Source: a virus | DNA: 23,753 bases | Direction: 5' to 3' (one strand) | Virus record (IMG/VR): IMGVR_UViG_3300042988_000154 | Coordinates: 1 to 23,753 of that record | Shown here: piece after piece, positions 6,601-23,261 of the stretch | How positions within the stretch are numbered: position 1 is the stretch's first letter | How the letters are laid out: each line of letters opens with the position of its first letter | Made by a program: the position numbers and the translations under genes | The notes under the pieces: generated by a model | Told to the model about the DNA's origin: nothing | Seen by the model: only the letters and a program-made list of their open reading frames with translations | Databases searched by the model: none

Positions 6601-6601
6601 G
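6598..6601. promoter_or_regulatory. Shared CATG: start codons of two divergent genes
   Basis: The four bases CATG at 6598-6601 supply the ATG of the plus-strand gene (6599-6601) and, on the other strand, the ATG of the 811-aa gene (6600-6598). There is no intergenic DNA, so each gene's leader and promoter must lie inside the other's coding region. No Shine-Dalgarno is visible on either side. Confidence 0.75.
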
Positions 6602-7720
6602 TATAATATTAATAGTCACTACGAAAATATCTATAGTTACTTGTCTACGATTGTAGCACATCCAAGGGTCTTATATCTACACCCTTATGGATCAACTCAA
6701 CCAGAACAAATTGAAGTGTTAGCCAAAGACATGAGTCATTTGCCTTCAACAGGCGACCCATTGTTTATATTCTATGACCAAGAACCGATATACGGTGAGT
6801 TTAACTTTAGACTGTTTGATTACATACGAGATAACATTAGTGGACCGTATGTGTTAGTGACAACTGAAAAAGAAAGTGATGCACTAGATAGAGTGCAAGC
6901 TAGGTACGGATGGCCGGTTGTTTATTATTTTCATCACGTATTTGCTGCACACGATTGGTACAGGGGTTACCAGTACAATAGCCAATTAATAGACCCAGGA
7001 TCAAGAACGCTAAAAAAGAAGTTTGTATCATTTAACAGGCTCACTAGTCATGCACGAGTATATCGCAGTTTATTTATTTCGGAATTAGTCAAACACGGAA
7101 TCCTAGATCAAGGACACGTAAGTTATAACGATGTGTGCCCCAATAATAACGAAAACTATGTTAGCAATTTAGCTGCTGCAAAAGAATCTGGTCTAATTTC
7201 CTATAATATATTTAGTGAAGCAACCAACAATATAGCACAGGCGCCACTACCATTACGTGTAGATTACAAAGATCAATTAACTATACCGAATCATAGTTTT
7301 GTATTAAGTGCTATTCCGGAAACACAAGAAAGCTTCTGCTATGTGGTCACCGAAACATGCTTTTGGGATAGAAAACATCACCTAACCGAAAAGATCTTTA
7401 AACCAATTGTTAGCAAAATGCCATTTATATTAATTGGTCCTGCTAACAATCTAGCATACTTACGTGAGTATGGGTTTGAAACCTTCAGCAATTGGTGGGA
7501 TGAGAGCTATGATAGTATTGTGGACCCTGTTGCACGTTTGGCCGCTGCTACCCAGGTTTTAAGCAATCTATGCAGCAAGGATTTGGGTGAGCTAGAAGCT
7601 ATGCTAAAGGATATGAATGATGTTTTGGACTACAACTACAATCGATTCTATAGCCAAGACTTTTTGGATACCAGCTGGGCAGAGCTAACTGAAAATCTCA
7701 AGTTTGCTGTCCCCATTTAA
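6599..7720 (+). CDS. Phage glycosyltransferase, fucosyltransferase-like C-terminal half
   Basis: This 373-aa protein is the only plus-strand gene. Residues 142-163 (FVSFNRLTSHARVYR) and the motif HLTEKIFKPI at 261-270, followed by PFILIGPANNLAYLREYGF and a WDESYD segment, resemble the nucleotide-sugar-binding part of GT10-type fucosyltransferases. The same pattern, with TEKxFKPI, recurs in glycosyltransferases of many phages. The N-terminal half has a Rossmann-like strand VLYLHPYG and FIFYDQEPIYG. It presumably acts in the cytoplasm on a nucleotide sugar; acceptor unknown. The next in-frame Met is at residue 45, inside the conserved part, so the first ATG is kept although no Shine-Dalgarno precedes it. 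Its last 23 bases overlap the convergent DUF2061 gene. Confidence 0.85.
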   Translation: MYNINSHYENIYSYLSTIVAHPRVLYLHPYGSTQPEQIEVLAKDMSHLPSTGDPLFIFYDQEPIYGEFNFRLFDYIRDNISGPYVLVTTEKESDALDRVQARYGWPVVYYFHHVFAAHDWYRGYQYNSQLIDPGSRTLKKKFVSFNRLTSHARVYRSLFISELVKHGILDQGHVSYNDVCPNNNENYVSNLAAAKESGLISYNIFSEATNNIAQAPLPLRVDYKDQLTIPNHSFVLSAIPETQESFCYVVTETCFWDRKHHLTEKIFKPIVSKMPFILIGPANNLAYLREYGFETFSNWWDESYDSIVDPVARLAAATQVLSNLCSKDLGELEAMLKDMNDVLDYNYNRFYSQDFLDTSWAELTENLKFAVPI

Positions 7721-7904
7721 TTTTTCCCCATACTCGTTCATGTATAAAATATAAAACAGTATTAAAGGTTAGCTGGATTACTGCAATAGAACTTGAGATT
7801 GAAATATCCCCAACAATAGCATACGATATAGCAAACGTTGCCCCAGTACCTGTAATACGCCAGGTAATTGTTTTTGCAAGGCTTCTTACTGTGGTATCAT
7901 GCAC
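7698..7904 (-). CDS. DUF2061 small membrane protein, copy 2
   Basis: The 68-aa protein has the DUF2061 pattern: RSLAKTITWRITGTGATF, a hydrophobic segment with the GDIS turn, then a second hydrophobic stretch ending in LYFIHERVWGKIKWG. It should form two membrane spans (about 16-33 and 37-53) with a basic C-terminal tail. The family's function is unknown. The start is GTG at 7904, which gives the family's usual N-terminus; it overlaps the kinase stop by 8 bases. It is the last gene of the long minus-strand run, and its 3' end overlaps the plus-strand glycosyltransferase by 23 bases, with no terminator hairpin between them. It pairs with the copy at 8328-8540 around the kinase gene. Confidence 0.85.
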   Translation of the reverse strand: MHDTTVRSLAKTITWRITGTGATFAISYAIVGDISISSSIAVIQLTFNTVLYFIHERVWGKIKWGQQT

Positions 7905-8331
7905 CTCTAAATCCTAAAATAGTATGTGCGATTAACTCGCTCCATTTAACACTATCTTGTGTGTGTATTCTAAAATCATAACACCCAGGTGGTTCGAATA
8001 ATCGATTGGTATCTTCGAAGCGACCTTCTTGTATGGTATCAACCCATACGGTCCAATGTGCGTCAAAGTTTGTACGCATCTCATCTAGCGGTGCAATAAA
8101 GTCACAGATAACATAATCACACGTCATTTCATCTGCTAGCTGTCGCATACGTAGGCTTTGGCGTATACGTCCTTCAATACTGAAATCCCAATCATTGTAT
8201 TTCTTGCGTACATCATCTGCATTGAGCCAGTGGACAGACTTATTTGAATTTTGCAAACGTTCTAATATATGTTGTGCCAAGTATGTTTTACCCGCGCCGG
8301 GCAAGCCCATAACTAGAATACGCTGTGTCAT
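7897..8331 (-). CDS. APS-kinase-like P-loop kinase
   Basis: From the ATG at 8331, which overlaps the upstream stop as ATGA, the product is 144 aa. The Walker A motif GLPGAGKT is at residues 9-16. HWLNADDVRKKYNDWDFS (34-51) and GRIRQSLRMRQLAD follow the adenylylsulfate kinase (CysC) pattern, and CDYVICDFIAPLDEMR (71-86) matches the second core strand and SPxxxxR region. VWVDTIQEGRFEDTNRLF corresponds to the FVDTPxExCxxRDxKGLY segment. It is shorter than bacterial CysC (about 200 aa). The family makes PAPS, the sulfate donor, but relatives phosphorylate other small molecules. No sulfurylase or sulfotransferase is visible here, so the substrate is open. The DUF2061 genes on both sides suggest a shared role at the membrane. 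Confidence 0.85.
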   Translation of the reverse strand: MTQRILVMGLPGAGKTYLAQHILERLQNSNKSVHWLNADDVRKKYNDWDFSIEGRIRQSLRMRQLADEMTCDYVICDFIAPLDEMRTNFDAHWTVWVDTIQEGRFEDTNRLFEPPGCYDFRIHTQDSVKWSELIAHTILGFRGA

Positions 8332-8540
8332 TTTTCCAAGCCCCATTTGATCTTTAACCAAATACGTTCGTGAATGTAATAGTCAACGCTCAACAGTAAG
8401 TGCAATGCCGTGGCAAAGCCCGTGGCTGACCCAATGTCGCCTGTAAACAAGTAAGTCCAGAAAATAGTAAACAGCCAGGCTGTTATTCTATAGGTGATCA
8501 TTCTTGTTACTGTTCTTTTATGTGACTCTTTTACGAGCAT
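8328..8540 (-). CDS. DUF2061 small membrane protein, copy 1
   Basis: This 70-aa protein is a paralogue of the 68-aa protein at 7698-7904. It has the same order: a basic N-terminus (KRTVTRMITYRITAW), a first hydrophobic span with the turn TGDIGSAT, a second span and the conserved tail YYIHERIWLKIKWG. Two membrane segments are expected, about 17-33 and 40-54. It starts at 8540, overlapping the carbamoyltransferase stop by 10 bases, and ends in ATGA with the kinase gene. The gene order DUF2061, kinase, DUF2061 implies duplication around the kinase or a two-subunit membrane partner. Confidence 0.87.
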   Translation of the reverse strand: MLVKESHKRTVTRMITYRITAWLFTIFWTYLFTGDIGSATGFATALHLLLSVDYYIHERIWLKIKWGLEK

Positions 8541-10018
8541 ACTTTAACTCCATATAGTTGTTCAAAGCGATCTGCGTCTGCACGATCGTTTACCATTGGT
8601 TCCCCACGAATGTTAAGACTTGTGTTTAACAACATAGGGCACCCTGTCATTACATACCACTTTTCGAGCAGCTCTCTAATGCCGCTTCCATCTTTCGGCA
8701 CTGTCTGGACACGACTAGAGCCGTCAGCGTGAACGATAGCAGGAAATAGGTCAGGAACCCTGCAACGAGCGACTGACTGCATGTACCTACTATGCTCGAA
8801 ACCACGAGGCATATCAAAGTAAGTATCAGCCAGTTCTTCCAAAATAACGGGCGCAAATGGTCTGAATTGTTGTCTACGTTTAATGTCATTTACTTTCTCC
8901 TTAATCTCGCTGCCTCTAGGATCTGCAAGCAGGCTTCTGTTTCCAAGTGCTCTTGGACCGAACTCGGCTCTCCCGGAAGCCACTCCCACAATTTGCCAAG
9001 TAAGTAACTCGTCCAGAATGTCGTTAACAGGGTAAGGGCCAGGAATATTATGCCCGAGATAAGCGTCACGCCAGTTAAGGGCACCCCCATAAGCCAAAGC
9101 GGCAGCACCAAGGCTACTGCCAGCATCACCAGGGTTAGGCATAATCCAGATATTCTCAAAGTAGTTTCCTATACGTGCATTTGCTGCACAGTTTAAAGCA
9201 CATCCGCCCATGTAGACTAAATTGTTGCTCCACTTAAATTGTTTGGCGCGAAGCATAACGTTTAAAATCAAATCTTCTGCTAGGTCTTGTGCCGCGGCAG
9301 CGACATCCATATCGCCAGTAGTATCAGTTAGATACTTGCATGCCATGCCCATGTGCATGTTCTGTTTAAATTTAATGTTCCATTCATCGTCTACGAGATC
9401 CATACGCATTAAGTCGCTAAACCCACGCTCTCCGTATGCCGCCATACCCATTAGAATGTATTCCTCGTCCATGGGCTTTAGTCCAACTTTGGCTGTCGCT
9501 GCACTGTAGAACAATCCAATGCTGTGTGGATAGTGTTGTTGCCACAGCTTCTTATATACAGCCTTACCGTTTATGTATTCTGCTCCGTAGATGCTGGTTG
9601 TTTCAAACTCCCCAATAGCATCAATTACTACAACCGTGGCTCTGTCAAATGTTGATGTTTGAAATCCAGCTGCGGCATGACTTAGGTGATGGTTGAAGCT
9701 CTTATAAGTGTTGAGGTCCCACCATTTAGCATAACCGATTTGATCATGCACCAACTTCTTTGTAGATATTTTATTCCAGTCAAATCCTTGTCCGGCATAA
9801 AGCTGTCGTAGTTGTTTGATAAGTGGTCGCTCATAATATGCGACAGTCCCGATCGGATTATAATTTTCGAGTTCACGAATAAGAGGACTGCAAAAATTAG
9901 CGTCACTCTTCTTCTTGGAGTAACGTTCACTATGCGATGCAAAAAGTATGTTTCCATCACTGTCTAATACCGTTGCGGCTGCATCATGAAATCCAGCCGA
10001 GATTCCTAATATGTTCAT
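8531..10018 (-). CDS. O-carbamoyltransferase of the NodU/CmcH/TobZ family
   Basis: The 495-aa protein begins MNILGISAGFHDAAATVL, the family's usual start. It keeps the Kae1-like metal site in HHLSH at 110-114, the VVVIDAIGEFETTS strand-turn (about 130-142), MGGCALNCAAN (270-280), PNPGDAGSSLGAA, and the C-terminal-domain signature GRAEFGPRALGNRS (349-362) followed by RPFAPVILEE and NTSLNIRGEPMV. These enzymes activate carbamoyl phosphate with ATP and transfer the carbamoyl group to a sugar hydroxyl, as in nodulation factors or tobramycin. It is somewhat shorter than the roughly 550-600 aa of many members; the loss seems to be at the extreme C-terminus. Its start lies 35 bases inside the SGNH gene. 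It is good evidence that the island decorates a sugar or sugar-like product. Confidence 0.95.
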   Translation of the reverse strand: MNILGISAGFHDAAATVLDSDGNILFASHSERYSKKKSDANFCSPLIRELENYNPIGTVAYYERPLIKQLRQLYAGQGFDWNKISTKKLVHDQIGYAKWWDLNTYKSFNHHLSHAAAGFQTSTFDRATVVVIDAIGEFETTSIYGAEYINGKAVYKKLWQQHYPHSIGLFYSAATAKVGLKPMDEEYILMGMAAYGERGFSDLMRMDLVDDEWNIKFKQNMHMGMACKYLTDTTGDMDVAAAAQDLAEDLILNVMLRAKQFKWSNNLVYMGGCALNCAANARIGNYFENIWIMPNPGDAGSSLGAAALAYGGALNWRDAYLGHNIPGPYPVNDILDELLTWQIVGVASGRAEFGPRALGNRSLLADPRGSEIKEKVNDIKRRQQFRPFAPVILEELADTYFDMPRGFEHSRYMQSVARCRVPDLFPAIVHADGSSRVQTVPKDGSGIRELLEKWYVMTGCPMLLNTSLNIRGEPMVNDRADADRFEQLYGVKVCS

Positions 10019-10517
10019 TGATTTTTTCTGCTATTCTTTGATGACCTAGTTCTAGCGGATGCCCACCAGGTCCTTTAGGGCAATCGCCCATCCACTCTAC
10101 CATACTGCCTGGTATCCAATTACCAACACCGGACTCAGGTACATCAAACGTTCTTACAAACACATAAGGTATCTGTTTGTCCCGTAAGTAGCTATCCAGT
10201 AATAATACTTGTGTGCGAAATTTTTTAATTGCCCAATCCTCGTCCCAATCTAAAAATACATGATCACATATTGATCCATACTTTCTGTGACTACTTGGTG
10301 TTAGGTGTTGCCCATTTATTTCAATTCTATGCGGCGTGGTCCAACATACAATAACGGCATCAGGTTGTGTTAAATGAGTAAACTCTACTGTGGTCTTCAC
10401 AATAGCATCATTACTAAATCCTGCTGTGCCATAATTTATTGTACCTTCAACTAAACTAGGCCATGCAATAGGACTTTCTTCTCCTGCTGTAAAACTGTCG
10501 CCAGTGACAAATATCAT
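9984..10517 (-). CDS. SGNH/GDSL hydrolase-like protein, short paralogue
   Basis: The 177-aa protein has SGNH blocks. Block I is GDSFTAG (6-12), with Ser8 as nucleophile. A block II-like GTAGFSNDAI (30-39) offers Gly and Asn for the oxyanion hole. The C-terminal block is GGHPLELGH (151-159), with His153 or His159 as the likely catalytic base. A TTPHRIEING loop resembles the longer paralogue's FPGRYEF. Family members are esterases or acyl transferases on sugars. No signal peptide is seen, so it should act in the cytoplasm. The start overlaps the GIY-YIG stop as ATGA, and its end overlaps the carbamoyltransferase start by 35 bases. Confidence 0.87.
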   Translation of the reverse strand: MIFVTGDSFTAGEESPIAWPSLVEGTINYGTAGFSNDAIVKTTVEFTHLTQPDAVIVCWTTPHRIEINGQHLTPSSHRKYGSICDHVFLDWDEDWAIKKFRTQVLLLDSYLRDKQIPYVFVRTFDVPESGVGNWIPGSMVEWMGDCPKGPGGHPLELGHQRIAEKINEHIRNLGWIS

Positions 10518-11215
10518 GTATTTTCCATATAAAACCCAATGGATCTAAAAGTTTTTCCAACCATGTCACTTGTTAAAAATTTAGAAACACCAACCATATT
10601 ATTGGTTATAACTGCATCGCAATTTTTACACCATTTAAATACTGTCCCTTTGCTAATATTTTTTATATTATCAGCAATTTCTTTTACGGTTGCAAACTTT
10701 CCATACGGGGTCACATAGTAACCGTTAAACCTTGAATTTTTTTCTGCAACATACTTTCCAGATAGACTATTGCTTATCTTAAGTTTAGATTCATCTGAAT
10801 GACTAGAACCAAACATATGATTCTTTTTCCCCACCTGTGCCTGCCCTATCTTTTTTCGGGTTTCTTCTGAATGAGAATACCCGGGCCTTCTTGATTTCAT
10901 TTTATGCCGTGTTTCCTCAGACATCTTAAATCCTTTACCGAGGCCGTAGCCGCCGGATGACATATTATAACATAACGGGTCATCTTGCCATAAATTGCCT
11001 AAGATTGCAATTTCAGCAATATATGCCTCATCATCGCTAGGGTATTCTCCGATTGTCTCGCGAATGAAGTTTTCTCTCCCGTATTTTTCCACAGATCGTT
11101 TTAATCTTATCCCGCTTCCAAGATACCCGTCAAACTCATCAGTCAGCTGACAGTGTTTACCAATATAGTATTGGCCTGTTGCAATGTTTGTAGTTTTATA
11201 GACTATATATTTCAT
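10514..11215 (-). CDS. GIY-YIG homing endonuclease with NUMOD3 repeats
   Basis: The 233-aa product starts MKYIVYKTTN at the ATG at 11215; an in-frame TTG five codons earlier is less likely. The GIY-YIG domain covers 1-90: IVYKTTN, QYYIGKH, YLGSGIRLKR with the catalytic Arg, and AYIAEIAIL with the metal-binding Glu. Basic NUMOD3 repeats follow at about 95-150 (MSEETRHKMKSR, HSEETRKKIGQ, HSDESKLKIS). The C-terminal 65 residues (YYVTPYGKFATVKEIADNI; TVFKWCKN) look like a helix-turn-helix DNA-binding module. It is a free-standing mobile gene lying between two SGNH paralogues. A T4-late-promoter-like GATAAATA sits just upstream, which would give it expression separate from the operon. It ends in ATGA with the SGNH gene. 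Confidence 0.95.
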   Translation of the reverse strand: MKYIVYKTTNIATGQYYIGKHCQLTDEFDGYLGSGIRLKRSVEKYGRENFIRETIGEYPSDDEAYIAEIAILGNLWQDDPLCYNMSSGGYGLGKGFKMSEETRHKMKSRRPGYSHSEETRKKIGQAQVGKKNHMFGSSHSDESKLKISNSLSGKYVAEKNSRFNGYYVTPYGKFATVKEIADNIKNISKGTVFKWCKNCDAVITNNMVGVSKFLTSDMVGKTFRSIGFYMENT

Positions 11216-11220
11216 ATATC

Positions 11221-11228
11221 TATTTATC
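11221..11228 (-). promoter_or_regulatory. T4-late-type promoter element before the GIY-YIG gene
   Basis: The minus strand reads GATAAATA, 7/8 of the T4 late consensus TATAAATA, ending 5 bases before the ATG at 11215. T4 homing endonuclease genes such as I-TevI are known to use late promoters. I found no other match this good oriented toward a gene. With this spacing the transcript would start at or just inside the ATG, which weakens the call. Confidence 0.4.
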
Positions 11229-11243
11229 AAACGGAACCCGTTT
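11229..11243 (-). terminator. Small hairpin between SGNH and GIY-YIG genes
   Basis: The sequence AAACGG-AAC-CCGTTT (plus strand) forms a perfect 6-bp stem with a 3-base loop. It lies 6 bases after the TAA of the 281-aa gene in the only gap (11216-11249) within the long run. There is no U-run, so it is at best a weak terminator. It may instead be an RNA hairpin controlling the endonuclease, or part of the homing site. Confidence 0.35.
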
Positions 11244-11249
11244 TATTAC

Positions 11250-12095
11250 TTATATATAAAGGGATCCCTGCGTCTCAGTTCTTTTAACTTCTTGCGGTAG
11301 CGAATCTCTAATCGGATTCTGTTGTACAGATTTTTTAACCATTTCATTGAATTTCTCCTGCATAAGTTTTGCAGCATCGGCGTGAGCTTGTTCGAGCGGA
11401 TGTGTAGTGCCTATAGGGTATTTATTTTCCCTGGCCCACTGGTAGAAACCTCTTGGACTTTGCGTATGGTAGCTTTCTGTTCCTGCAGGAAACCAAAACC
11501 AGTTGTTCATATCAATTTGATTTAACAAGCTGTTAATCACTGAATCATTTTGGCTGGCTGTGTAGTTATAGATAATACTGTTGTCTGCACAAGTAAACAA
11601 GTAAGGAATGCCTTTTACTTGGAGGTAATTCTGTAGGTAAACAATCTCTTTAAGACTCGAATACACTTCCCAGTATTCCGTAGAACCCACGTGTGCGTAG
11701 AATGTTCTCGCAAAATCTGCAACACCAGTCGCCTTCGCTCTGCGTATGGATTCCAACTGGGCATCCAGAATAGCCGTATCTTTGGTAACAAATTCTTGTT
11801 CAATTTCTCTGGCATCTTGTTTGATAGTCCATGCGTTAATACTGTACCACGGACTTTTACGCTGCTTTGTATCGTATGCAAATCTAAACTCGTAACGACC
11901 GGGAAATGTCCAGGACACAATTACGCCAGAGACTCCACCTTGCTCACAACGTTCAATGGCTGTACGAGCTATAGCGTCATTGCCATATCCGGGCCATGCA
12001 ACGCATTGTTGGGCCCCTAGCAGTGCGGTAAATGTGTTAGCAGGGCTCGCTAGCTCACTGCCGTAAACAAAACTATCTCCTGCTGCTATAATCAT
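11250..12095 (-). CDS. SGNH/GDSL hydrolase-like protein, long paralogue
   Basis: The 281-aa protein shares its frame with the 177-aa paralogue: block I GDSFVYG (6-12, Ser8), block II-like GYGNDAIAR (36-44), WTFPGRYEF (62-70), and the C-terminal block GTTHPLEQAH (229-238) with two candidate catalytic histidines. A large insert between about 75 and 215 (rich in aromatic residues, such as NNWFWFPAGTESYH) probably shapes acceptor binding. A basic and polar tail follows after 250. The role is likely deacylation or acyl transfer on a sugar. The first 23 bases overlap the end of the 360-aa gene. It is followed by a hairpin and the inserted endonuclease gene. Confidence 0.85.
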   Translation of the reverse strand: MIIAAGDSFVYGSELASPANTFTALLGAQQCVAWPGYGNDAIARTAIERCEQGGVSGVIVSWTFPGRYEFRFAYDTKQRKSPWYSINAWTIKQDAREIEQEFVTKDTAILDAQLESIRRAKATGVADFARTFYAHVGSTEYWEVYSSLKEIVYLQNYLQVKGIPYLFTCADNSIIYNYTASQNDSVINSLLNQIDMNNWFWFPAGTESYHTQSPRGFYQWARENKYPIGTTHPLEQAHADAAKLMQEKFNEMVKKSVQQNPIRDSLPQEVKRTETQGSLYI

Positions 12096-13155
12096 AACCA
12101 GGCTTTAATTTGTTGATTTGCTGTTCATAATAATCCGGATCTGTCCAAGTGTAGGGATATACGGAGCGTAGAACATTCCCTTGCCCGTCATCTGTAGCGA
12201 TCCCTTGTATGTCGAGGTACCTTGAAAGTATGGGCCAAACTTCACTGTAGTTGGTTGTTCCAAAAGACGCCAATAAATCAACTTGACCCACCGGGTGGTA
12301 CCCAAAGTTATATTCGGGGTTGACCAAATCGAATCCGTTGCGTACAAGCCAATCCCTAAATCCTGCCAGCTCTCGGGTGTGCCAAGGATGGGGACCATTA
12401 TAGACCACATCCTGCGCCCACTCGACGTCAAACTCCCCGCTATAGTAACGTAGGTGAGTAATAGCATCACATACGCTCTGGTCAATATCGACTCCTGCTT
12501 CGTCTCGATATACCTCATACAACGTTTTACCAATTTGCGTCCAATGTAGGTATACTTCCCCGAAGCGTCTGTCATATCGAGATTCGTCAAATGTAGTTCG
12601 ATGTATTGCTGGGAATTCATAACGTGGGCAATTTAAAAAGGTTGTGATTTGACTAGGACGTACCCACTCTGGCTGCGTTGCTTGTTTGCGTTGACTAAGC
12701 ATTAAACTCTCTGCTTCGTGGCACAGCAAGTTTAGTTGGCGGATAGCAAACTTTGTGGTATAGTCTGCCCGCTTGTAATATTCACTAAGTCCGTTAACAG
12801 TGCCTTGCAGTATCTCAAAGTGATTGTGCAACTTGTTCATCAAGTCCTGATTAGGCTCTAGCCCATTGCGTAATGTGGTATGAGTGTACAGTTCTTCGAT
12901 ATGATAGTCGTCAAAGAAACTGTTAATCTCATTTACTGCCCAAAACAGTTCTTGGCAAATAAAACGTAAGTCGCGTTGGCTGTCCGGGAATCCTAAAAAG
13001 CAAAAGTTCTTCTCAAGGTAGAGATTACGTTGCACTACATCTTGCAATGCTTCAAACCACAGTTTGCCCATTGGCGTATCATTTACGTTGATGTAGTAAT
13101 CTAACGTGTCACTTTTGTCTAACGGGTTCTGCAAGGTTACAGTTACTTTATTCAT
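12073..13155 (-). CDS. Conserved-looking protein of unknown function
   Basis: From the ATG at 13155, which overlaps the previous stop as ATGA, the product is 360 aa; an earlier in-frame start would lie within the upstream gene. It begins with a beta-like segment (NKVTVTLQNPLDKSDTLDYY). A helical middle with many aromatic and acidic residues follows (about 30-170), then a C-terminal half with SQITTFLNCPRYEFPAIHR, FGEVYLHWTQIGKTLYE and FGYHPVGQVDLLASFG. No catalytic motif is recognised, nor any signal or membrane segment. Position between the radical SAM block and the SGNH gene, with overlap on both sides, suggests it belongs to the same pathway. Acceptor-binding or carrier roles are only guesses. 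Confidence 0.8.
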   Translation of the reverse strand: MNKVTVTLQNPLDKSDTLDYYINVNDTPMGKLWFEALQDVVQRNLYLEKNFCFLGFPDSQRDLRFICQELFWAVNEINSFFDDYHIEELYTHTTLRNGLEPNQDLMNKLHNHFEILQGTVNGLSEYYKRADYTTKFAIRQLNLLCHEAESLMLSQRKQATQPEWVRPSQITTFLNCPRYEFPAIHRTTFDESRYDRRFGEVYLHWTQIGKTLYEVYRDEAGVDIDQSVCDAITHLRYYSGEFDVEWAQDVVYNGPHPWHTRELAGFRDWLVRNGFDLVNPEYNFGYHPVGQVDLLASFGTTNYSEVWPILSRYLDIQGIATDDGQGNVLRSVYPYTWTDPDYYEQQINKLKPGYDYSSRR

Positions 13156-13358
13156 GCCCACCTTAACGCAAATTCTGTGGCTAATTTGGGATCTGCAAAA
13201 TAAAAGTCGCCGCCCCACTCTGTAGCAGTATTATCAGAATACTCCCATAGCCATCCTGTTTCGTCGTACGGTATATTAAGGTTATCACACCATCCAATAA
13301 TCTGATCTATTTTGCTTTCGTGCAGGTCTAGATCCATTTCCACTGTTACTTTAGTCAT
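13152..13358 (-). CDS. Small acidic protein after the radical SAM block
   Basis: Starting at the ATG at 13358 (a TTG three codons earlier is less likely), the product is 68 aa. It starts with a strand-like TKVTVEMDLDL, has a helix around DQIIGWCDNLNI, then GGDFYFADPKLATEFALRW. The latter resembles the end of small phage proteins with a two-strand, one-helix shape. It is acidic, with one cysteine and four tryptophans. It overlaps the last radical SAM gene by 8 bases and ends in ATGA with the 360-aa gene. Because it sits right after five radical SAM genes it is worth considering as a peptide substrate or partner, but nothing in it resembles a known leader peptide. Confidence 0.75.
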   Translation of the reverse strand: MTKVTVEMDLDLHESKIDQIIGWCDNLNIPYDETGWLWEYSDNTATEWGGDFYFADPKLATEFALRWA

Positions 13359-15859: not shown

Positions 15860-17162
15860 ACTTTTTCAATTCGTTAAGCTCAGGAAATACGTCAAAGAAG
15901 TTTTCATTACGTACATTGTCAATTAGGTTGTTGTTCTTGAAAAACTCCGGCAGCTGACTTGTGCTATCATTGGCCATCATAAAATTAACAATGCCTTCAA
16001 ACCCGCTTGTTGCACGAGTTAAGCTATCCAGTGGACGTAACCATTCTAGATGCTCTTCAATACGTGCTTTAGCTTGCTCTTTGATATCTTGGGGCAATAC
16101 ATCAACCCGATATCGATGAGGGTGTTGTAGAATGTTGATATTCCAGTCCATTGGGCGTACTAGGCCAAGGTCACTCCACTCACGGTGAAAGTCTGCAATA
16201 TGCAACACGTTCATCATGCTTACTGTGCTACTAACGTAAAAGTCTACGTTGGGGCAAACTTCAATCATACGTTTACGATTCTCAACGGTTTGCTGCCAGT
16301 CTTGTCCTTTACGCATATATTCACCACGTGCATAGCTTCCGTCTAAACTGGCGCCAACGCTCACACAATCAAACAGCTTCCACATTTCAAACACGTCACG
16401 ACCCTTGAACTTCATTTCACTAAAGTTAGTGTTATAGATTAGTCGCACATGGAACATTTTGCGTTTTACTAGCTCGTCAAGAACTTTCCAATGCTCTTCC
16501 ATAATGAGTGGTTCGCCGCCGGCCCAATAGATTTGCTCAAGGTGCGGAATATGCTCTTGCATCTGCTCCCACATGTCTCCTTTATCTTTGCCAGCGTACA
16601 TGATTTGAGGATGCTTTGGATCCCATCCTGCTTTCTTTTCGTCCTGGTACCAGTTTGAAGAAAAGATACTACCGCAGGTTCTGCAAGCAAAATTACAAAG
16701 ATTACTAAAACGAATATCATAGTACCGGAGTTTGAAATCCTCGTAGGTACCATCTTCCTTAGTATCATCTACTAATCCGATATGATGTCCAAAGTTCTTA
16801 TTGGCACTTTCTCGCATACTGAATAGCTTCGATTCTTCTTGCTCATAGCACTTGGTACACTCTTTGCACGGTTGATTCAGTAGCATACGCTTACGCATAT
16901 CCTTTAGTGGAGCATCGTTCCAAATTTCACGCATTGTTTGCGTTTTAAAATTACCAATGGGGTGCTCTGGTTCACTTAGACAGCAAGGGTAAGCACGACC
17001 GTCTGGAAAGCCATGCATATGGATCCACGGAATCATGCAGAACTGATCACTCTTAACTAGTCTGTCAAGTTGATCTTTGCGTAAGTCTTCTTCCTTGATG
17101 TACACTGGCTTGCGGGCACCGTAGTTGTAATCTTTATAGTAATCGTTTAAGTCGTCTGCCAT
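15846..17162 (-). CDS. Radical SAM protein with N-terminal twitch domain (3rd of five)
   Basis: This 438-aa protein has the clearest twitch/SPASM-type signature of the set, at its N-terminus: FCMIPWIHMHGFPDG (Cys42), AYPCCLSE (Cys60, Cys61), then GNFKTQTMREIWND and PCKECTKC (Cys99, Cys102, Cys105). The radical SAM core is CNFACRTC (Cys156, Cys160, Cys163), followed by YWAGGEPLIMEEHW and SVGASLDGSYARGEYMRKG. The order is the reverse of PqqE or anSME, where this region follows the core. It starts in TAATG with the upstream gene, sharing one base, and its last bases overlap the next by 14. A charged 40-residue extension precedes the first cysteine. Confidence 0.95.
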   Translation of the reverse strand: MADDLNDYYKDYNYGARKPVYIKEEDLRKDQLDRLVKSDQFCMIPWIHMHGFPDGRAYPCCLSEPEHPIGNFKTQTMREIWNDAPLKDMRKRMLLNQPCKECTKCYEQEESKLFSMRESANKNFGHHIGLVDDTKEDGTYEDFKLRYYDIRFSNLCNFACRTCGSIFSSNWYQDEKKAGWDPKHPQIMYAGKDKGDMWEQMQEHIPHLEQIYWAGGEPLIMEEHWKVLDELVKRKMFHVRLIYNTNFSEMKFKGRDVFEMWKLFDCVSVGASLDGSYARGEYMRKGQDWQQTVENRKRMIEVCPNVDFYVSSTVSMMNVLHIADFHREWSDLGLVRPMDWNINILQHPHRYRVDVLPQDIKEQAKARIEEHLEWLRPLDSLTRATSGFEGIVNFMMANDSTSQLPEFFKNNNLIDNVRNENFFDVFPELNELKKYDPT

Positions 17163-18511
17163 TATATTGCCTTATACCATTCTGCCAACTCGGGAAATGT
17201 GTTGCAGAAGTCTTTGCCTCTGCGTTGGTCGTATTGTGCGAAGAAGTTTTTAAAGTCACGTTGCAGTATGCTTTGACTAACTGCTTCGCTGTGTGCTTGT
17301 TCTACTGTACCAATGTAATCAATCAGCCTAGTAAGTTGATTAAATTCGTATTCGTGCATTAAGTCCATTTGGACATAACTAGCAGCAAAGTCATTTAACT
17401 TAGTGTAGTAGGTTTTGCGAATATCGTTAGGGAGAACTGTAAGTGATTGAAAACTTGGAAAGCGTAAGATATTTAGCGAAAAGTTAATGGCATCTTTACC
17501 GTACTCCACTTTCCATTGCATGACCATTTCAAGGAAGCTGTCTAAGCTGCTAAGGCATAGTGCATTGATAGTACACATCACATGCAGGCCACGGAACTTA
17601 CCGCTGTCAAGTAGTCGTTCCACATTGTTGGCCCAGTCGTCAAAGTTAATACCATCTCGAATATACTCTGCCTGTAAGCCCATTGATTCGTTGCTAGTAT
17701 ACAAGTCAACTTCTACGCCATCAATGCTGTCAAGCAAACGATCAATATCTACTTGTGTGCCCAGGTTGCTGTTGATAGCAAGGCGTGTGGTACTCTTGCC
17801 CTTGTTGGTTTTAAACCAATCAATTAGCTTCCATGTCTCGCCGGACATTAATGGCTCGCCACCTGTGATGCGTAACTCTTTTAAAGTCTTGTGGAGGTCA
17901 CTTTCCCACCACTTGTGGAACGCTTCCACATACGGATTAGCATCACCGAATTTATACAATTGAGAACTATCGTGACTATGAGTAAAGTGGTTCCTACCGT
18001 CACTAACCAATCCATTGTAGGGTCCATGTTGTTTAATGTCCTTAACCCAAGTAGAACTAAAAGCTGGGTTACAGTAAGAACAAGCAAACTGGCAAGTACG
18101 GTCGAATGCGATTTCAAGCGTTTGAAGATCAACGTCTTCGCTTGCTGGGGTTCTAAAAGCATAATCTAAATCCTTGTCTTCGTATATCACTGTTTTATAC
18201 ACACGGTCAGACACTGCATCCTTGCCCATGTCTTCGATCTTCCAACAGTATTCACAACCTGCAGGACGTTCACCCTTTTGCATCTGCTCGCGTTCTGCTT
18301 TCTTCTTGGCAGTGTTGTGCAGTACTTTGGGGTTAGATGATAGCTCGCTTACATCAATTGCATGTGGCAACGGATGATGGCAGCTAGTGGTCTGACCACT
18401 ACCTAACCAGATAGTGGCATTGTACCATTTAGCAGCACAGAAGCTTTCCGACTTGATGTCAATTACTCTGCGTTTGTACTCTAGGTCTGTTTCGTTATTG
18501 ATTTTGGGCAT
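17162..18511 (-). CDS. Radical SAM protein, HPxxH subgroup (2nd of five)
   Basis: The start is placed at the ATG at 18511, giving 449 aa beginning MPKINNETDLEYKRR. A frame extension of 44 codons upstream lies wholly inside the previous gene and is not used. The N-terminal cysteine region is FCAAKWYNATIW (Cys25), TTSCHHPLPHAI (Cys44) and CEYCWKIED (Cys86, Cys89). NPKVLHNTAKKKAERE between them is shared with the 461-aa paralogue. The core is CQFACSYC (Cys140, Cys144, Cys147), then ITGGEPLM. DLYTSNESMGLQAEYIRDG replaces the usual SIDG. These two paralogues have a single Cys plus His-Pro where the other three have Cys-Cys, so their auxiliary cluster ligands or substrate pocket may differ. Confidence 0.93.
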   Translation of the reverse strand: MPKINNETDLEYKRRVIDIKSESFCAAKWYNATIWLGSGQTTSCHHPLPHAIDVSELSSNPKVLHNTAKKKAEREQMQKGERPAGCEYCWKIEDMGKDAVSDRVYKTVIYEDKDLDYAFRTPASEDVDLQTLEIAFDRTCQFACSYCNPAFSSTWVKDIKQHGPYNGLVSDGRNHFTHSHDSSQLYKFGDANPYVEAFHKWWESDLHKTLKELRITGGEPLMSGETWKLIDWFKTNKGKSTTRLAINSNLGTQVDIDRLLDSIDGVEVDLYTSNESMGLQAEYIRDGINFDDWANNVERLLDSGKFRGLHVMCTINALCLSSLDSFLEMVMQWKVEYGKDAINFSLNILRFPSFQSLTVLPNDIRKTYYTKLNDFAASYVQMDLMHEYEFNQLTRLIDYIGTVEQAHSEAVSQSILQRDFKNFFAQYDQRRGKDFCNTFPELAEWYKAI

Positions 18512-19880
18512 GATACCTGCATTCGTCCCAGAACTCTCGCATCTCTGGGAATGTTGTTTTAAAGTCTGTACCGCGTCTTGTATCATGATGATTAAAGAAT
18601 CGGTAAAAGTCAGCACGTTGCAGTTTAACATATTCAGGATCAAGTTTGCTACCTTCCTTCATCCATTCTATGTCACGAGCCATACGTTGAATCTCGTAAT
18701 CCTTAAAACCTTGAAATGGCTTGTCTGCTGTTTCTTTGTTAGCTTCCATCCATTTCAGAACGTCTTCCATACGCTTAACATAGACCCACGGCATAATCTG
18801 TATACTTTGCCAGCTGGGGGTGCGTAACAAGGGAGTATCAAACCAAACACGTTGATAAGTTGTGCTGTGCTGTTTTCGCAAGTTCAGAATCCAATCTAAC
18901 TGAGCCTGTAAGCCAACAATGCTGAGATTATTCATAGTGATAATGAATGTGAGACTGTTGCGATAAGGAATATCAGTTAGGTAACGCTGCACATTGTTAT
19001 GCACTCTTGATGCTGTCATACCATGTCGGATGTATTCAGCCTGCTCCATGTTGCCCGAGTCCAAACTAACATACTGCATGAAGTGCTCAATTTGTGTATT
19101 GCACAAACGTTTTACGTAATCAAGGTACTGATCCATTAACTTAGGTTCTACGCTAAAGTTACTGGTTACGTTTAAGTGCAGGTCTGGCTTAGGCATGGCT
19201 AACACATAGTCAAAGACCTTGTAGGTATTCTTGTCCATCAGTGGCTCGCCGCCTGTCATGCGGAAGTGCTTTAATTTAGGATACAGTTCCGGCCACCACT
19301 CCCAAAATGCATCAACGTACGGGTTAGACTCACGAGCGGGTATAGGTCGTCTGTTACCCGTAAAATGAGCAGGGTCATTGTGGGGAACACTAGTGGGAAA
19401 TGCTCCGTGTCTAGCAACTTCGTCAGCCCAACTGCTGCTAAACTGAGGGCTACAATAACTACACTTAAGGTTGCAAGCGTGATTAAAATTGACTTCCACA
19501 TAACTCGGGATCGCGTCTTCGACCCCTGTACTATTTTTGATCTCGTCATAGTGTTCTGCTGCCCAAGGCTCTCCGCTTCTGTAGTGTCTGTCACTTAGTT
19601 GATCATGTGCTTCAATGTTCCAGCAATAGCTGCACTCGCTGGGCTTTTCATCCTTTAGCATAATCACACGCTGTTGCTTTTTGTGCTCGGTGTTATGTAA
19701 TGCGCCGGGATTCAGTTTGATTGCTTCTGGGTCAATTTTATGTAGGGGCGGATGGTAGCAACTGTTTGTTAGCCCTGTAGGAAGGTGTAGACTAACTTGT
19801 TGCCACTTAGCCAAGCAGAGTGCAGGACCAAGATTGTCCTTCATAAACTCTGCACTTGCCATGAAGTCTGATTTACTCAC
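18495..19880 (-). CDS. Radical SAM protein, HPxxH subgroup (1st of five)
   Basis: This 461-aa protein opens the radical SAM block. The N-terminal cysteine region reads LCLAKWQQVSLHLPTG (Cys22), TNSCYHPPLHKI (Cys41), NPGALHNTEHKKQQR and CSYCWNIEAH (Cys83, Cys86). The core is CNLKCSYC (Cys136, Cys140, Cys143), then FRMTGGEPLM and YVSLDSGNMEQAEYIRHGM. It is a recent-looking paralogue of the 449-aa protein; both share TFPEL/M-R/A-EF/W near the C-terminus (DFKTTFPEMREFW, DFCNTFPELAEWY) and NSLTFIITMNNL-like strands. The start overlaps the upstream glycosyltransferase by 8 bases and the end overlaps the next gene by 17. It is likely co-translated with its paralogue and could act as its partner. Confidence 0.95.
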   Translation of the reverse strand: MSKSDFMASAEFMKDNLGPALCLAKWQQVSLHLPTGLTNSCYHPPLHKIDPEAIKLNPGALHNTEHKKQQRVIMLKDEKPSECSYCWNIEAHDQLSDRHYRSGEPWAAEHYDEIKNSTGVEDAIPSYVEVNFNHACNLKCSYCSPQFSSSWADEVARHGAFPTSVPHNDPAHFTGNRRPIPARESNPYVDAFWEWWPELYPKLKHFRMTGGEPLMDKNTYKVFDYVLAMPKPDLHLNVTSNFSVEPKLMDQYLDYVKRLCNTQIEHFMQYVSLDSGNMEQAEYIRHGMTASRVHNNVQRYLTDIPYRNSLTFIITMNNLSIVGLQAQLDWILNLRKQHSTTYQRVWFDTPLLRTPSWQSIQIMPWVYVKRMEDVLKWMEANKETADKPFQGFKDYEIQRMARDIEWMKEGSKLDPEYVKLQRADFYRFFNHHDTRRGTDFKTTFPEMREFWDECRYHAQNQ

Positions 19881-20775
19881 GTGCCATTATACCTTTATTT
19901 TTAAACTGACTCATGTAGTGATGTTTAAAGAACTTACTTTGTTCTGCGTTCATTGACGTGATAGGCAAGCCTAATCTAGTCTTTAGAGCTTCATCAACTT
20001 CGTAGGTGAAGTCTTCTCCTGTGTACTCTGCTGTGCTGTACTTTTCCCAGAGAGCTTGGAGTTTGGTGAAATCTTGGACGTCTGTATAGTCCCATTCAGT
20101 AAGCATTGTGAGGTAAGTACCAAGTCTTGCTCCGCGGATTGCCATGGATCCGTAGTCCACATCTTGGCCCACTGAATGCCAGATGGCCAAGTTATCGTAG
20201 TTCCGTGAAACCACCCGCGAGTTGAACTCAGCAAGACTTGGCTTGGCTCCTCGATCCAGACACATTTTAACACCCTCACGAAACCCTGCACGCCAGGCTT
20301 GGAAAGGTGATCCATTTGGATATGTCGTCGAATAACAGTCTGCCATTGCCCAATACTTTGGGTGAAAGCAAAATTCCACAAGCGTCTCATCACTCCCGTC
20401 TGAGGCTTCGTGAGTCCGCATATTGTAAACAAAATCTTTAGTCCACGAGCTAAGTCCACCATTTCCATACATTAGTCCATTTATATTGTTACGTGCTCGC
20501 CATCGGAAAACGCAATCACGATTAGAATCATCCAGATCCATCTGTTGATTAAAAAAAGCAGGATCGGGGAGGTTATCCCCATCAATGAGGATGAACCTTT
20601 CTGTATCTGAAGCATCAGCGGCTGCTTTGTGTGCAGCATCCGAACCCTTAACTCCGTCCACTCGCTTGGCCCAGGGAACAACATTTTGAATCTGGACCCA
20701 AAACTCTTCTTTTTTTGGTTCGTCATATGTTAAGTAGATGCAATCTAAATCTGCAACGTCAATTATTTCTGTCAT
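19873..20775 (-). CDS. GT-A-like glycosyltransferase with DGD motif
   Basis: The 300-aa protein has a nucleotide-sugar-transferase core: first strand LDCIYLTYDEP (10-20), then WAKRVDGVKGSDAAHKAAADAS (35-56) and the metal-binding FILIDGDNLPDP with Asp65-Gly66-Asp67. A later region FRWRARNNINGLMYGNGG and FQAWRAGFREGVKMCLDRG aligns with the C-terminal unit of the 811-aa protein, where the DGD is missing. The layout suggests a retaining or inverting enzyme that needs a metal and a nucleotide sugar; donor and acceptor are unknown. It begins 17 bases inside the 112-aa gene and ends 8 bases inside the first radical SAM gene, so sugar transfer and radical chemistry are co-expressed. Confidence 0.87.
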   Translation of the reverse strand: MTEIIDVADLDCIYLTYDEPKKEEFWVQIQNVVPWAKRVDGVKGSDAAHKAAADASDTERFILIDGDNLPDPAFFNQQMDLDDSNRDCVFRWRARNNINGLMYGNGGLSSWTKDFVYNMRTHEASDGSDETLVEFCFHPKYWAMADCYSTTYPNGSPFQAWRAGFREGVKMCLDRGAKPSLAEFNSRVVSRNYDNLAIWHSVGQDVDYGSMAIRGARLGTYLTMLTEWDYTDVQDFTKLQALWEKYSTAEYTGEDFTYEVDEALKTRLGLPITSMNAEQSKFFKHHYMSQFKNKGIMARE

Positions 20776-21097
20776 AATATTCTATATCAGTATACTCGTC
20801 GTTTTCCACAACAAGATTGGCGTACCCATTTACAACAGGCACACCGGTATTGCTTTTCTTTAATTGTACGTGAAACTGACTGCTTAAGTCAAAGAGTAAC
20901 TTTCCGCCGACTACTCGGCAGTTATAGTTTGCACTGTCGTAATGCTGTTTGGTAATAACCACATACTGCCCCTCTGGGTGCATGTGGCTGCTCATGGTTA
21001 TTGGCTTACCTTTTGAGTCATAGTACAAACGATACTCAAGCTCAACAGGAGGTATGGCTTGTATATTGTTAAATGCTTCCGCTAATTCTTTGCTCAT
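20759..21097 (-). CDS. Small hypothetical phage protein in the glycan operon
   Basis: From the ATG at 21097 (the in-frame TTG at 21106 is less likely) the product is 112 aa. An N-terminal helix (SKELAEAFNNIQAI) is followed by beta-rich sequence: VELEYRLYYDSKGKPITMSSHMHPEGQYVVITKQHYDS, CRVVGGKLLFDLS, then NGYANLVVENDEYTDIEYYDRN. The HMHPEGQYVVI segment and strand-turn pattern recur, from memory, in short proteins beside phage glycosyltransferases, but I cannot name a family. No enzymatic motif or membrane segment is seen. It overlaps the upstream glycosyltransferase by 29 bases and the next by 17, so it may be a small partner subunit. Confidence 0.75.
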   Translation of the reverse strand: MSKELAEAFNNIQAIPPVELEYRLYYDSKGKPITMSSHMHPEGQYVVITKQHYDSANYNCRVVGGKLLFDLSSQFHVQLKKSNTGVPVVNGYANLVVENDEYTDIEYYDRNN

Positions 21098-21911
21098 AGT
21101 ACTCAATTAATTCATCTGTTGCAAAGTCTTTTACATGATAGTGAACTGGATGCAATTGGTTAATATTGTTAATGCGTATCATATCTTCATTGCGTTCAGC
21201 AACACAGTATTCAGTCCATTCCTGTGTGTCACTCCAACCTTGCATACCCGATTTCATATGCACAAAGTTAATGAAATCCAAACTAGGATTGTAGCAAGGA
21301 GTATCCATAATCTTTGCTGCTAATGCGTATACCACATCAGTGGTCGGGTATGGATCATCGCAATGCTTTAACTCTGCCTTAACTGCATCCCAGTTCTCAA
21401 AAATGTCCTTTGCAAGAGCAAAGAATTGTTTACTAGTTTCACTGTAACGCCAATACATTAGGCCGTTATAAGTATCTGGCAATTGGTTATCATCAAACAC
21501 TTGCCGATACTGTCTACTCGTCCCAGTTGTTTGCTGATATGTTTTGCATCCGTGGCTTAGGCAAACATCGTGTAATCTAAATGCGTTCCACCAATGGTCA
21601 ATGCTGCGAGTGAATAACAAATCACTTTCTAGCTTAATGGTTTCTTTGTAAGGAGTTAGCCACCATGCATGCCATTCATTGGCATACGGACCTGCACCTT
21701 CTACTCGATTGGTAGGAATGATATGATCAAACACTGCACGGTGCTTATCTTCTACTAAGTTAAATGTGTCTTGGTCAACAATAACAGAACAGCAATTCAT
21801 TTTCTGCGTTGATTTGATGTTCAACGCTTGTAGATATGCTAGCCGTAGGTAATCTGTCTCTTTTGAGTTTATGGCAAGTGTTAGATATCCGCGTGGCTCT
21901 TTATTTTTCAT
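21069..21911 (-). CDS. GT8-like glycosyltransferase with ESD in place of DxD
   Basis: The 280-aa protein shows the same plan as the 266-aa neighbour. An opening strand YLTLAINSKETDYLRLAYLQALNIK (9-33) is followed by YKETIKLESDLLFTRSIDHWW (88-108), where the metal-binding position reads Glu95-Ser96-Asp97. In the paralogue the equivalent is Asp95-Ala96-Asp97, so residue numbers line up. A C-terminal NQLHPVHYHVKDF is a plausible His-containing metal or phosphate motif, as in GT8-type enzymes. The Glu substitution may still bind metal or may weaken it. It overlaps the 103-aa gene by 11 bases and the 112-aa gene by 29. The acceptor is unknown. Confidence 0.85.
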   Translation of the reverse strand: MKNKEPRGYLTLAINSKETDYLRLAYLQALNIKSTQKMNCCSVIVDQDTFNLVEDKHRAVFDHIIPTNRVEGAGPYANEWHAWWLTPYKETIKLESDLLFTRSIDHWWNAFRLHDVCLSHGCKTYQQTTGTSRQYRQVFDDNQLPDTYNGLMYWRYSETSKQFFALAKDIFENWDAVKAELKHCDDPYPTTDVVYALAAKIMDTPCYNPSLDFINFVHMKSGMQGWSDTQEWTEYCVAERNEDMIRINNINQLHPVHYHVKDFATDELIEYYEQRISGSI

Positions 21912-22212
21912 TTCGGGTTAATGCCAATAACGCTTGATATTTTTCGTATGCATCTTTGACTGCGGGGTACTTCTCACGGAGCAGCATGTCATCTTGCTCA
22001 GTCTTTAATTTAGCGGTATCCATCACCAACATCGCAAAACTTTCTGGCGTGGTGTCTAATGTCACACCACCGCCTCTTCCAGCAATAGCAACGGGTGCGT
22101 TGCCGTATACATCCACGTCAATATGTTCACGTCTGAAACTCGTTATGGTCATTCCATACCGCATTGTGAAATCTCGTATTTCAGTTGCATCAAACACCAT
22201 GTAGGGCTCCAT
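21901..22212 (-). CDS. Small hypothetical protein between two glycosyltransferases
   Basis: The 103-aa product starts at the ATG at 22212; a second ATG four codons later (22200) is equally possible. The N-terminal half is beta-like (FDATEIRDFTMRYGMTITSF; HIDVDVYGNAPVAIAGRGGG), and the C-terminal half is helical and charged (LKTEQDDMLLREKYPAVKDAYEKYQALLAL). A glycine-rich GRGGG turn sits near residue 46. There is no membrane segment. I do not recognise it. It overlaps the glycosyltransferase genes on both sides (23 or 11 bases upstream, 11 downstream), so its expression is tied to theirs. Small phage virion proteins can look like this as well. Confidence 0.75.
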   Translation of the reverse strand: MEPYMVFDATEIRDFTMRYGMTITSFRREHIDVDVYGNAPVAIAGRGGGVTLDTTPESFAMLVMDTAKLKTEQDDMLLREKYPAVKDAYEKYQALLALTRNEK

Positions 22213-22990
22213 TGACTAATTCTTTGAGTGCAGGGCTAGTTAGCCAAGCCTTTGAGATGATGTGAAGGTTACAACGAGGTAGGACATAGCCTCTATCGGA
22301 TGTTTTGACAACCAAGTTTTCAGCAACGGTAATGTTTTCAATCGCACCAGTAAATGTGAGAATAGAAGCTGGTGAAAAACTCTGTGGAGCCAGTTGATTT
22401 CCTTCCAGAATATAATGTGCAATCGCGAAAGCATAGTCGTTGCGGAAGTTGCCTTCTTGGATATTGTATAATAAACGGTAGTAGTCATAATTTCTTTTAA
22501 TCTTTCCCACAAGCTCGAAAAACATTTTAGACTTGGGAGTTTTGCGAAATAGAACAGCAGTTGCCCACACATAGGGCAAACTGTGCGGACCCATTACACT
22601 AGGCTGCTGGCCAATGTTGACGTACCGGTTCTTGTTAAAAAGCAAGTAATCGAAATCGCTGCAAAAGAGCTTGCAAAGACTATCGTCAAAAATAAGATAG
22701 TCAGCATCCAAGATGATGGTTTCGTGGTAGGGGCTTGCTTCGTATGCTTCGTGTCTTCCAAAATTTTTCCATTCTACAAAAGTACCTGTGTCGGTACTAA
22801 ACCGTTTATTGGACCCAGTGTCCTTGGCACTAACAATTGTAGTAGGCAATCCCATAAACCGTTCTATTAAACGGGCATTTTGCTCTGCTATCCCTACATA
22901 GTCTGTTTCGGCAGTGTTGGTTGCAAATATTACAACGCCTCTAGACTTTGCGGATTTTTCGGAGTTCTGCATACTGTTGATGCCATTCAT
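22190..22990 (-). CDS. GT8-like glycosyltransferase with DAD motif
   Basis: The 266-aa protein starts its fold at GVVIFATNTAETDYVGIAEQNARL (18-41), an opening Rossmann-like strand and helix. HETIILDADYLIFDDSL (89-105) holds the metal-binding Asp95-Ala96-Asp97. MGPHSLPYVWATAVLFRKTPKSKMFFEL fits the acceptor side of GT8-like enzymes, and a conserved-looking NDYAFAIAHYILEG follows. It should transfer a sugar from a nucleotide sugar; the acceptor is unknown. Two starts are possible (22990 and 22972); both lie inside the 106-aa gene. It is the first sugar enzyme of the long run and is paralogous to the 280-aa protein. Confidence 0.88.
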   Translation of the reverse strand: MNGINSMQNSEKSAKSRGVVIFATNTAETDYVGIAEQNARLIERFMGLPTTIVSAKDTGSNKRFSTDTGTFVEWKNFGRHEAYEASPYHETIILDADYLIFDDSLCKLFCSDFDYLLFNKNRYVNIGQQPSVMGPHSLPYVWATAVLFRKTPKSKMFFELVGKIKRNYDYYRLLYNIQEGNFRNDYAFAIAHYILEGNQLAPQSFSPASILTFTGAIENITVAENLVVKTSDRGYVLPRCNLHIISKAWLTSPALKELVNGALHGV

Positions 22991-23261
22991 TCATGGCTCT
23001 TTGATAGTGCTGTGTGCAAAGGTCAACGAATTCTCTTTGCACAATTTTGATTGGAGTACCGTATACATCTTCCAAAAACAACGCATCCTGATCACCTTGC
23101 CACAGTATTACAAAAGAGTAAATGGCAGGGTCTGCTTTAAACATTCCACCGTTGTATGCGAAATGCAGATCCGTTTGGATCTTTTCTTTAAGGATTTGTT
23201 TATTGGTTTGAAAATCAGTGGCCACGCGAACCTGGGCCACAATATTAGATAATTCACTCAT
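22941..23261 (-). CDS. Conserved T4-like phage protein, first gene of the long operon
   Basis: This 106-aa protein is of a kind I recall from T4-like cyanophages: an N-terminus like MSELSNIVAQVRVATD, then LKEKIQTDLHFAYNGGMFKADP, a middle FLEDVYGTPIKI and a tail HYQRAMNEWHQQYAELRKIRKV. No enzymatic motif is visible; a structural or assembly role is possible. The ATG at 23261 is supported by the family-like start. It directly follows a strong promoter whose expected transcription start falls on or next to this ATG, so translation may be leaderless; no Shine-Dalgarno is present. The next gene starts 50 bases before its end. Confidence 0.85.
   Translation of the reverse strand: MSELSNIVAQVRVATDFQTNKQILKEKIQTDLHFAYNGGMFKADPAIYSFVILWQGDQDALFLEDVYGTPIKIVQREFVDLCTQHYQRAMNEWHQQYAELRKIRKV

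Follow-up and report, generated by a model that had tools for sequence, protein, structure and literature searches.

IMGVR_UViG_3300042988_000154 is a linear virus fragment from the IMG/VR database. Its 23,753 bases (the window) show an even base composition along their whole length and contain no tRNA genes. The inspection of its open reading frames (ORFs) showed 20 of them between positions 7698 and 23261, all on the minus strand and overlapping or abutting. Five encode radical S-adenosylmethionine (SAM) enzymes, accompanied by glycosyltransferase-like proteins, a carbamoyltransferase, a kinase-like protein and SGNH-like proteins (Table 1). A preliminary description of the same DNA had reported about 19 nearly gapless genes with a single gap of 34 bases. 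The tight layout was confirmed but the counts were not: the largest internal gap is of 19 bases (11231–11249), and 31 bases (23262–23292) lie between the block and the upstream structural gene. The block had also been taken to be the full extent of one pathway building a decorated product. Most of its genes fit this idea, but one of them encodes a homing endonuclease (10514–11230) and the left border had to be moved, since two core genes that had been omitted (6599–7720 and 4165–6600) are conserved in the relatives and belong to the unit. ORFs 13152–13367 and 21901–22212 are local, being present in 0/64 and 1/10 relatives, respectively. It is well supported by the sequences that positions 4165–23261, minus the homing endonuclease and these two ORFs, make up a conserved unit, apparently a single pathway inherited together by uncultivated jumbo phages of the T4 superfamily (see below).

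Table 1. Features of the island and its borders. Relatives are counted among 64 IMG/VR loci anchored on the gene for the 364-residue protein; each denominator gives the loci whose contig reaches far enough.
Feature	Position	Strand	Evidence	Relatives
C-terminal part of upstream gene, outside the pathway	23293–23751	−	331-residue homologue in G001 and G002, after structural and tail-fibre-like genes	
Sigma-70-type promoter, TTGACA-17-TATACT	23268–23296	−	11/12 consensus matches in the window sequence	same place in relatives
106-residue protein, first gene of the unit	22941–23261	−		both informative loci; 7/8 jumbo records
GT8-like (GT-A) protein, 266 residues	22190–22990	−	DxD at LDADYL; profile-profile P=97 to 21069–21911	10/10
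GT8-like (GT-A) protein, 280 residues	21069–21911	−	profile matches glycogenin, E=0.001	25/25
115-residue conserved protein	20759–21106	−		29/32
GT-A-fold glycosyltransferase-like protein	19873–20775	−	invariant DGDN; AlphaFold2 pLDDT 79.5	45/45
Radical SAM 5 (N-twitch)	18495–19880	−	NF033640, 300 bits	53/53
Radical SAM 4 (N-twitch)	17162–18643	−	NF033640, 302 bits	58/59
Radical SAM 3 (N-twitch)	15846–17162	−	NF033640, 409 bits	59/59
Radical SAM 2 (N-twitch)	14651–15859	−	NF033640, 335 bits	58/59
Radical SAM 1 (N-twitch)	13351–14676	−	NF033640, 281 bits	63/64
364-residue core protein	12073–13167	−	alignment; many invariant residues, including several His and Glu	63 viral loci
SGNH/GDSL-like protein, motifs only	11250–12095	−	GDSF, GND and HPxxxxH in translation	39/61
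Homing endonuclease GIY-YIG/NUMOD3, inside the island, no pathway role	10514–11230	−	PF07460, phrog_314	0/60 informative
Short SGNH/GDSL-like protein	9984–10517	−	weak PF19547 match	42/60
NodU/TobZ-type O-carbamoyltransferase	8531–10018	−	PF02543, PF16861, phrog_1601	60/60
DUF2061 small protein	8328–8540	−	PF09834	4/58
APS-kinase-like P-loop kinase	7897–8361	−	PF01583, phrog_10255	38/58
DUF2061 small membrane protein	7698–7904	−	PF09834, 5.8e-20	22/58
373-residue conserved protein	6599–7720	+	glycosyltransferase-like by eye only	52/58, paralogues or paralogous domains counted
811-residue repeat protein	4165–6600	−	C-terminal domain homologous to 19873–20775	53/53

The gene set was followed in other viral contigs. 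A search with the 364-residue protein recovered 31 of them, and a search with its alignment 63. The core genes keep their order in the 64 loci, even though the 364-residue proteins found there are as little as 45–60% identical. The choice of anchor influences these counts, in which some near-identical contigs are included, and the carbamoyltransferase was therefore used to anchor a second search. This gave 71 loci with enough room, 64 of which held the genes for the 364-residue protein and radical SAM 1; the 4165–6600 gene was present in 62 of 66. A scattering of independent homologues, which would have spoken against a single gene set, was thus not upheld from either anchor, and the conserved order and co-occurrence agree with the proposal of one pathway. 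The accessory genes were variable (SGNH, 39/61 and 42/60; kinase, 38/58; DUF2061, 22/58). The 364-residue protein itself gave no match in Pfam, PHROG, PDB sequences or PDB folds (AlphaFold2 model, pLDDT 64.7), and no bacterial relatives of it were found in the search made.

The five radical SAM proteins had been described as carrying an N-terminal twitch (N-twitch). This was borne out by NF033640 (N_Twi_rSAM, twitch domain-containing radical SAM protein), whose curated cut-off of 170 bits all five exceed. The CxxxCxxC motif is retained by all of the 229 orthologues that were checked, and conservation of the N-terminal twitch cysteines among them is at least 97%. Translation of radical SAM 4 probably starts at 18511 instead of 18643. 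In a tree of 122 N-twitch proteins (a quick search, with the Shimodaira–Hasegawa-like approximate likelihood ratio test, SH-aLRT, as the only support measure), each of the five island genes belonged to a deep group of its own. A single clade (SH-aLRT of 100) was formed by radical SAM 1, and the cores of the other four lines were also strongly supported. In lines 1 to 4, the members from a Bacteriovoracaceae chromosome segment (see below) branched either at the base of the phage sequences or outside them, indicating that the split of the lines predates the phage radiation. As judged from these comparisons, the five lines are non-redundant, orthologous one-to-one and ancient. In each of the jumbo relatives (G001–G011), the N-twitch family has 8 to 15 matches, several of them distant from the island.

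The presence of GT-A glycosyltransferases had been predicted. Pfam recognized no glycosyltransferase among the island proteins, but the prediction was supported by fold for 19873–20775 and by weak profile matches for 21069–21911 and 22190–22990. The best PDB matches of the 19873–20775 model in Foldseek were nearly all glycosyltransferases, with E values of ∼1e-3 to 1e-2 and TM scores of ∼0.3. The C-terminal domain of 4165–6600 matches this protein by profile (P=98), without its DGDN/DxD motif. The 4165–6600 gene and its divergent neighbour 6599–7720 share their start codons in a single CATG (6598–6601). This CATG is kept at 34 of the 38 loci; at 22 loci, the alignment of the second gene begins at its first residue, with the 2-base overlap. 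The upstream signals of each gene must therefore lie inside the other.

The carbamoyltransferase contains the N and C domains of its family (PF02543, 126 bits with a cut-off of 24; PF16861, 158 bits with a cut-off of 27) and matched phrog_1601, which agrees with its earlier assignment to the NodU-type O-carbamoyltransferases. The NodU equivalog NF041651 was not reached (139 bits versus a cut-off of 1000). Relatives with solved structures (NovN, TobZ and GdmN) have antibiotics as their substrates, several of which bear a sugar. The adenosine 5′-phosphosulfate (APS)-kinase-like protein exceeded the Pfam cut-off, but scored only 33 bits against NCBIfam apsK (TIGR00455, CysC; cut-off 138.7); it is therefore a relative of APS kinase rather than APS kinase proper, and the earlier assignment holds in that looser sense. 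Some relatives have a cytidylyltransferase-like domain next to the kinase-like gene or fused to it (L090:9483-10283, L077:2305-2676). A sulfotransferase, which would have suited the kinase, was considered for a 188-residue gene in G001 and G002, and was dropped as it had no Pfam support. The two predicted SGNH esterase genes showed the GDS, Asn and HPxxxxH-type motifs, but no SGNH family profile of Pfam or NCBIfam matched 11250–12095 or 9984–10517. The small DUF2061 protein is the only product of the island that resembles a membrane protein. A second homing endonuclease (HNH) was found elsewhere in the window, at 1962–2954.

The strong promoter reported ahead of the block was confirmed. Equivalents with 11/12 matches lie directly 5′ of the same first gene in four divergent relatives (G001, G002, G004 and G005), and the match is therefore not a chance one. 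The reading by eye of sequences from G001, G002 and G010 showed a hairpin-like repeat followed by T residues ahead of the promoter. The conserved promoter and this repeat make the island look like a transcription unit of its own, though close behind the tail genes. The -10 box is only 7 bases ahead of the start codon of 22941–23261, with a similar spacing in G001 and G002; the mRNA of the first island gene may, from this spacing, be leaderless. The T4 late promoter TATAAATA was not found in the window. A homologue of a DsbA-like transcriptional regulator (phrog_639) is encoded at 310–585 in this window without TATAAATA sequences.

The inspection of the jumbo records placed the island in its genomic context. 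A Gp23-type major capsid protein (PF07068) is encoded in seven of eight of them, which identifies the relatives as T4-superfamily phages; the window does not extend as far as a capsid gene. The conserved block comprises about fifteen genes in the relatives and lies right behind the tail genes: upstream of it, tail-fibre-like proteins and a homologue of 23293–23751 were present in most of the eight records, and a structural protein of 2,500–3,100 residues in several. Downstream, on the other strand, lie genes for a DegT aminotransferase (PF01041, 2.6e-78), an NAD epimerase (PF01370, 1.3e-41), a thymidylate synthase and a DHFR-like protein. A full-length DegT gene was found in 10 of 10 jumbo records, beside the island in those that were read. 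It is not seen in the window because the downstream part has been replaced there by other genes. The thymidylate synthase gene, one per genome, is close to the island in most records, and the enzyme keeps Asn177 (motif FN) in the relatives read.

Counterparts of the radical SAM genes exist on bacterial chromosomes. Among 369 Bdellovibrionota genomes scanned, 14 had a match to radical SAM 1 below 1e-50. In a chromosome segment from Bacteriovoracaceae, members of the five lines follow one another with no sugar genes in between, next to obgE, L21, L27 and lgt (identified by eye). On one Bdellovibrionota contig of 2.66 Mb, the radical SAM lines lie beside nucleotidyltransferase-, GT2-, SGNH- and epimerase-like genes (also by eye). 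The island was further seen on four contigs (L182–L185) binned with metagenome-assembled genomes (MAGs) labelled Pelagibacter, Rickettsiales, Betaproteobacteria and Verrucomicrobia, which are probably misbinned phage DNA. In the most complete of them (L184, from a marine MAG), inspection by eye showed tail-fibre-like genes upstream, a DegT-like gene inside the operon, and PIG-L- and GNAT-like genes nearby.

The DegT and NAD epimerase genes next door, the GT-A-like proteins and the carbamoyltransferase make a tailored sugar or glycan the best reading of the island. The pathway that we tentatively favour would be a cytoplasmic one, producing a radical-SAM-modified, carbamoylated amino-sugar glycan for virion surface proteins. 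The DegT aminotransferase and NAD epimerase, whose genes adjoin the island in the relatives, would assist in making a nucleotide-activated amino-sugar. The five N-twitch radical SAM enzymes could perform demanding C-H chemistry on the amino-sugar or on its acceptor (for example, deoxygenation, epimerization, oxidation or the formation of C-C bonds). The glycan would be assembled by the GT8-like and GT-A-like proteins, and its hydroxyls decorated by the carbamoyltransferase and the SGNH proteins. In part of the lineage, the kinase and its cytidylyltransferase-like partner might activate a further substituent. The glycan may finally be mounted on virion surface proteins such as the upstream tail-fibre-like proteins, where it would alter binding or hide the virion. 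Several observations weigh against this proposal. No substrate has been reported, in the literature searched, for any N-twitch radical SAM enzyme of the NF033640 family, and twitch and SPASM radical SAM enzymes commonly act on peptides. The SGNH proteins were identified by motif only. The neighbours of the radical SAM lines in some Bdellovibrionota are housekeeping genes, with no glycosyltransferases among them. Finally, with a sigma-70-like promoter of its own and no T4 late promoter, expression of the island does not simply follow that of the tail genes.

The virion, the host envelope and an anti-defence modification had all been suggested as targets. Virion proteins are tentatively preferred here over the host envelope. 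The same glycan pathway could be aimed at the latter, altering the O-chain of the lipopolysaccharide (LPS) or another surface glycan during infection so that competing phages cannot adsorb. The glycosyltransferases of the host recognition cluster of pelagimyophages have been read in this way (PMC7029224), and both the host-type promoter of the unit and the apparent surface-polysaccharide locus with radical SAM lines on a Bdellovibrionota chromosome (identified by eye) are in its favour. It is nevertheless rather unlikely: no flippase, polymerase or polyprenyl-phosphate transferase was recognized in the island, and the divergent forms that were read are tightly attached to tail-fibre-like genes. 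The near-absence of membrane proteins also means that cytoplasmic protein glycosylation fits better than O-antigen export. We consider it improbable that the radical SAM enzymes instead modify side chains of a tail-fibre or structural protein, with the sugar enzymes acting afterwards. Such epimerization, thioether formation or C-C crosslinking, as in ribosomally synthesized and post-translationally modified peptides (RiPPs), would suit the peptides commonly targeted by twitch and SPASM enzymes, the structural proteins adjoining the island, and the Bdellovibrionota chromosome in which no sugar genes lie between the radical SAM lines. However, no precursor-peptide gene or domain of the RiPP recognition element type was recognized, and the phage set is accompanied by genes for sugar amination and for an epimerase.

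The modification of DNA bases appears very improbable. A phage carbamoyltransferase of the same fold produces 5-carbamoyloxymethylcytosine and co-occurs with thymidylate-synthase homologues; those that modify bases (dCMP hydroxymethylase) mostly have Asp at position 177 (PMC8670742). With this precedent, and a thymidylate synthase gene near the island in most jumbo records, the carbamoyltransferase and glycosyltransferases could be imagined to act on hydroxymethylated bases. The nearby enzyme, however, keeps Asn177 in the genomes read and is the only one of its kind in each genome, which disfavours DNA carbamoylation and, with it, an anti-defence modification of DNA. The island also lies behind tail genes rather than replication genes, and Tet/JBP were not found, in a search that also gave no match in any control. 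There is, likewise, very little chance that the island is a loose pile of unrelated auxiliary genes in a recombination hot spot. Its variable accessory genes and the homing endonuclease inside the block would be expected from such a pile, but the core is near-invariant in presence and order across divergent loci, from two anchors, and for these genes the idea is largely refuted.

Many aquatic phages are reported to carry radical SAM genes of no known purpose, and the island offers a testable case owing to its fixed five-enzyme order, its sugar-activation partners, its tail-fibre-like neighbour and its bacterial chromosomal counterparts, which are perhaps easier to work with. Should the product be a glycan of the virion, the phages would be encoding an elaborate decoration for their tails, and the island would open a new source of radical SAM chemistry on sugars. 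That the five N-twitch radical SAM enzymes, whose lines are old enough to occur in both T4-type jumbo phages and Bdellovibrionota, form with the 364-residue protein a new biosynthetic machine, placing a chemically new, radical-built sugar or protein modification on the phage's own tails, is possible but doubtful.

The general type of region is known; what is new, in the papers and phage records searched, is the conserved and ordered five-enzyme set with a carbamoyltransferase, for which no fixed equivalent was found in that literature. To our knowledge, the virion glycosylation of mycobacteriophages involves neither a radical SAM set nor a carbamoyltransferase. In those phages, glycans occur on capsid and tail proteins (Freeman 2023, as cited in PMC12619734). 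All five radical SAM proteins fall within NF033640 by curated score, but this entry assigns no reaction and does not mention five co-inherited paralogues. TobZ, NovN, GdmN and the 5-hydroxymethylcytosine carbamoyltransferase (PMC8670742) have both domains and the conserved motifs in common with the island carbamoyltransferase. The dCMP-hydroxymethylase partner of the latter system is, however, absent here: the window has no such gene and the enzyme of the relatives has Asn. The T4-like ocean phage genome TARA_ERS488813_N000010 has 12 radical SAM genes (PMC5332604), resembling the jumbo relatives in their number per T4-like genome; the passage on them treats them as Fe-S proteins generally, with no gene-cluster or pathway reading. 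The product had been said to have no obvious precedent in model phages. This stands at the gene level, tblastn against INPHARED having given no match for the 364-residue protein, 19873–20775, 4165–6600, 22190–22990 or 6599–7720, but not for the type of region. A region with tail fibres, glycosyltransferases and radical SAM cassettes has already been published for pelagimyophages, the T4-like phages of SAR11, and freshwater pelagimyophages are reported to lack the radical SAM and LPS genes (PMC7029224). The host recognition cluster of pelagimyophages and cyanomyophages described there resembles the island in belonging to the T4 superfamily, in lying beside tail fibres, and in containing several GT8-type glycosyltransferases and radical SAM cassettes. 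That cluster is hypervariable and non-syntenic, whereas the island has a core of about ten genes that are ordered over 60 loci and, unlike the cluster, includes a carbamoyltransferase and the 364-residue protein. The host recognition cluster sits, together with tail fibres, between VrlC and gp14. The island, in the relatives, has tail-fibre-like and large structural genes directly upstream.

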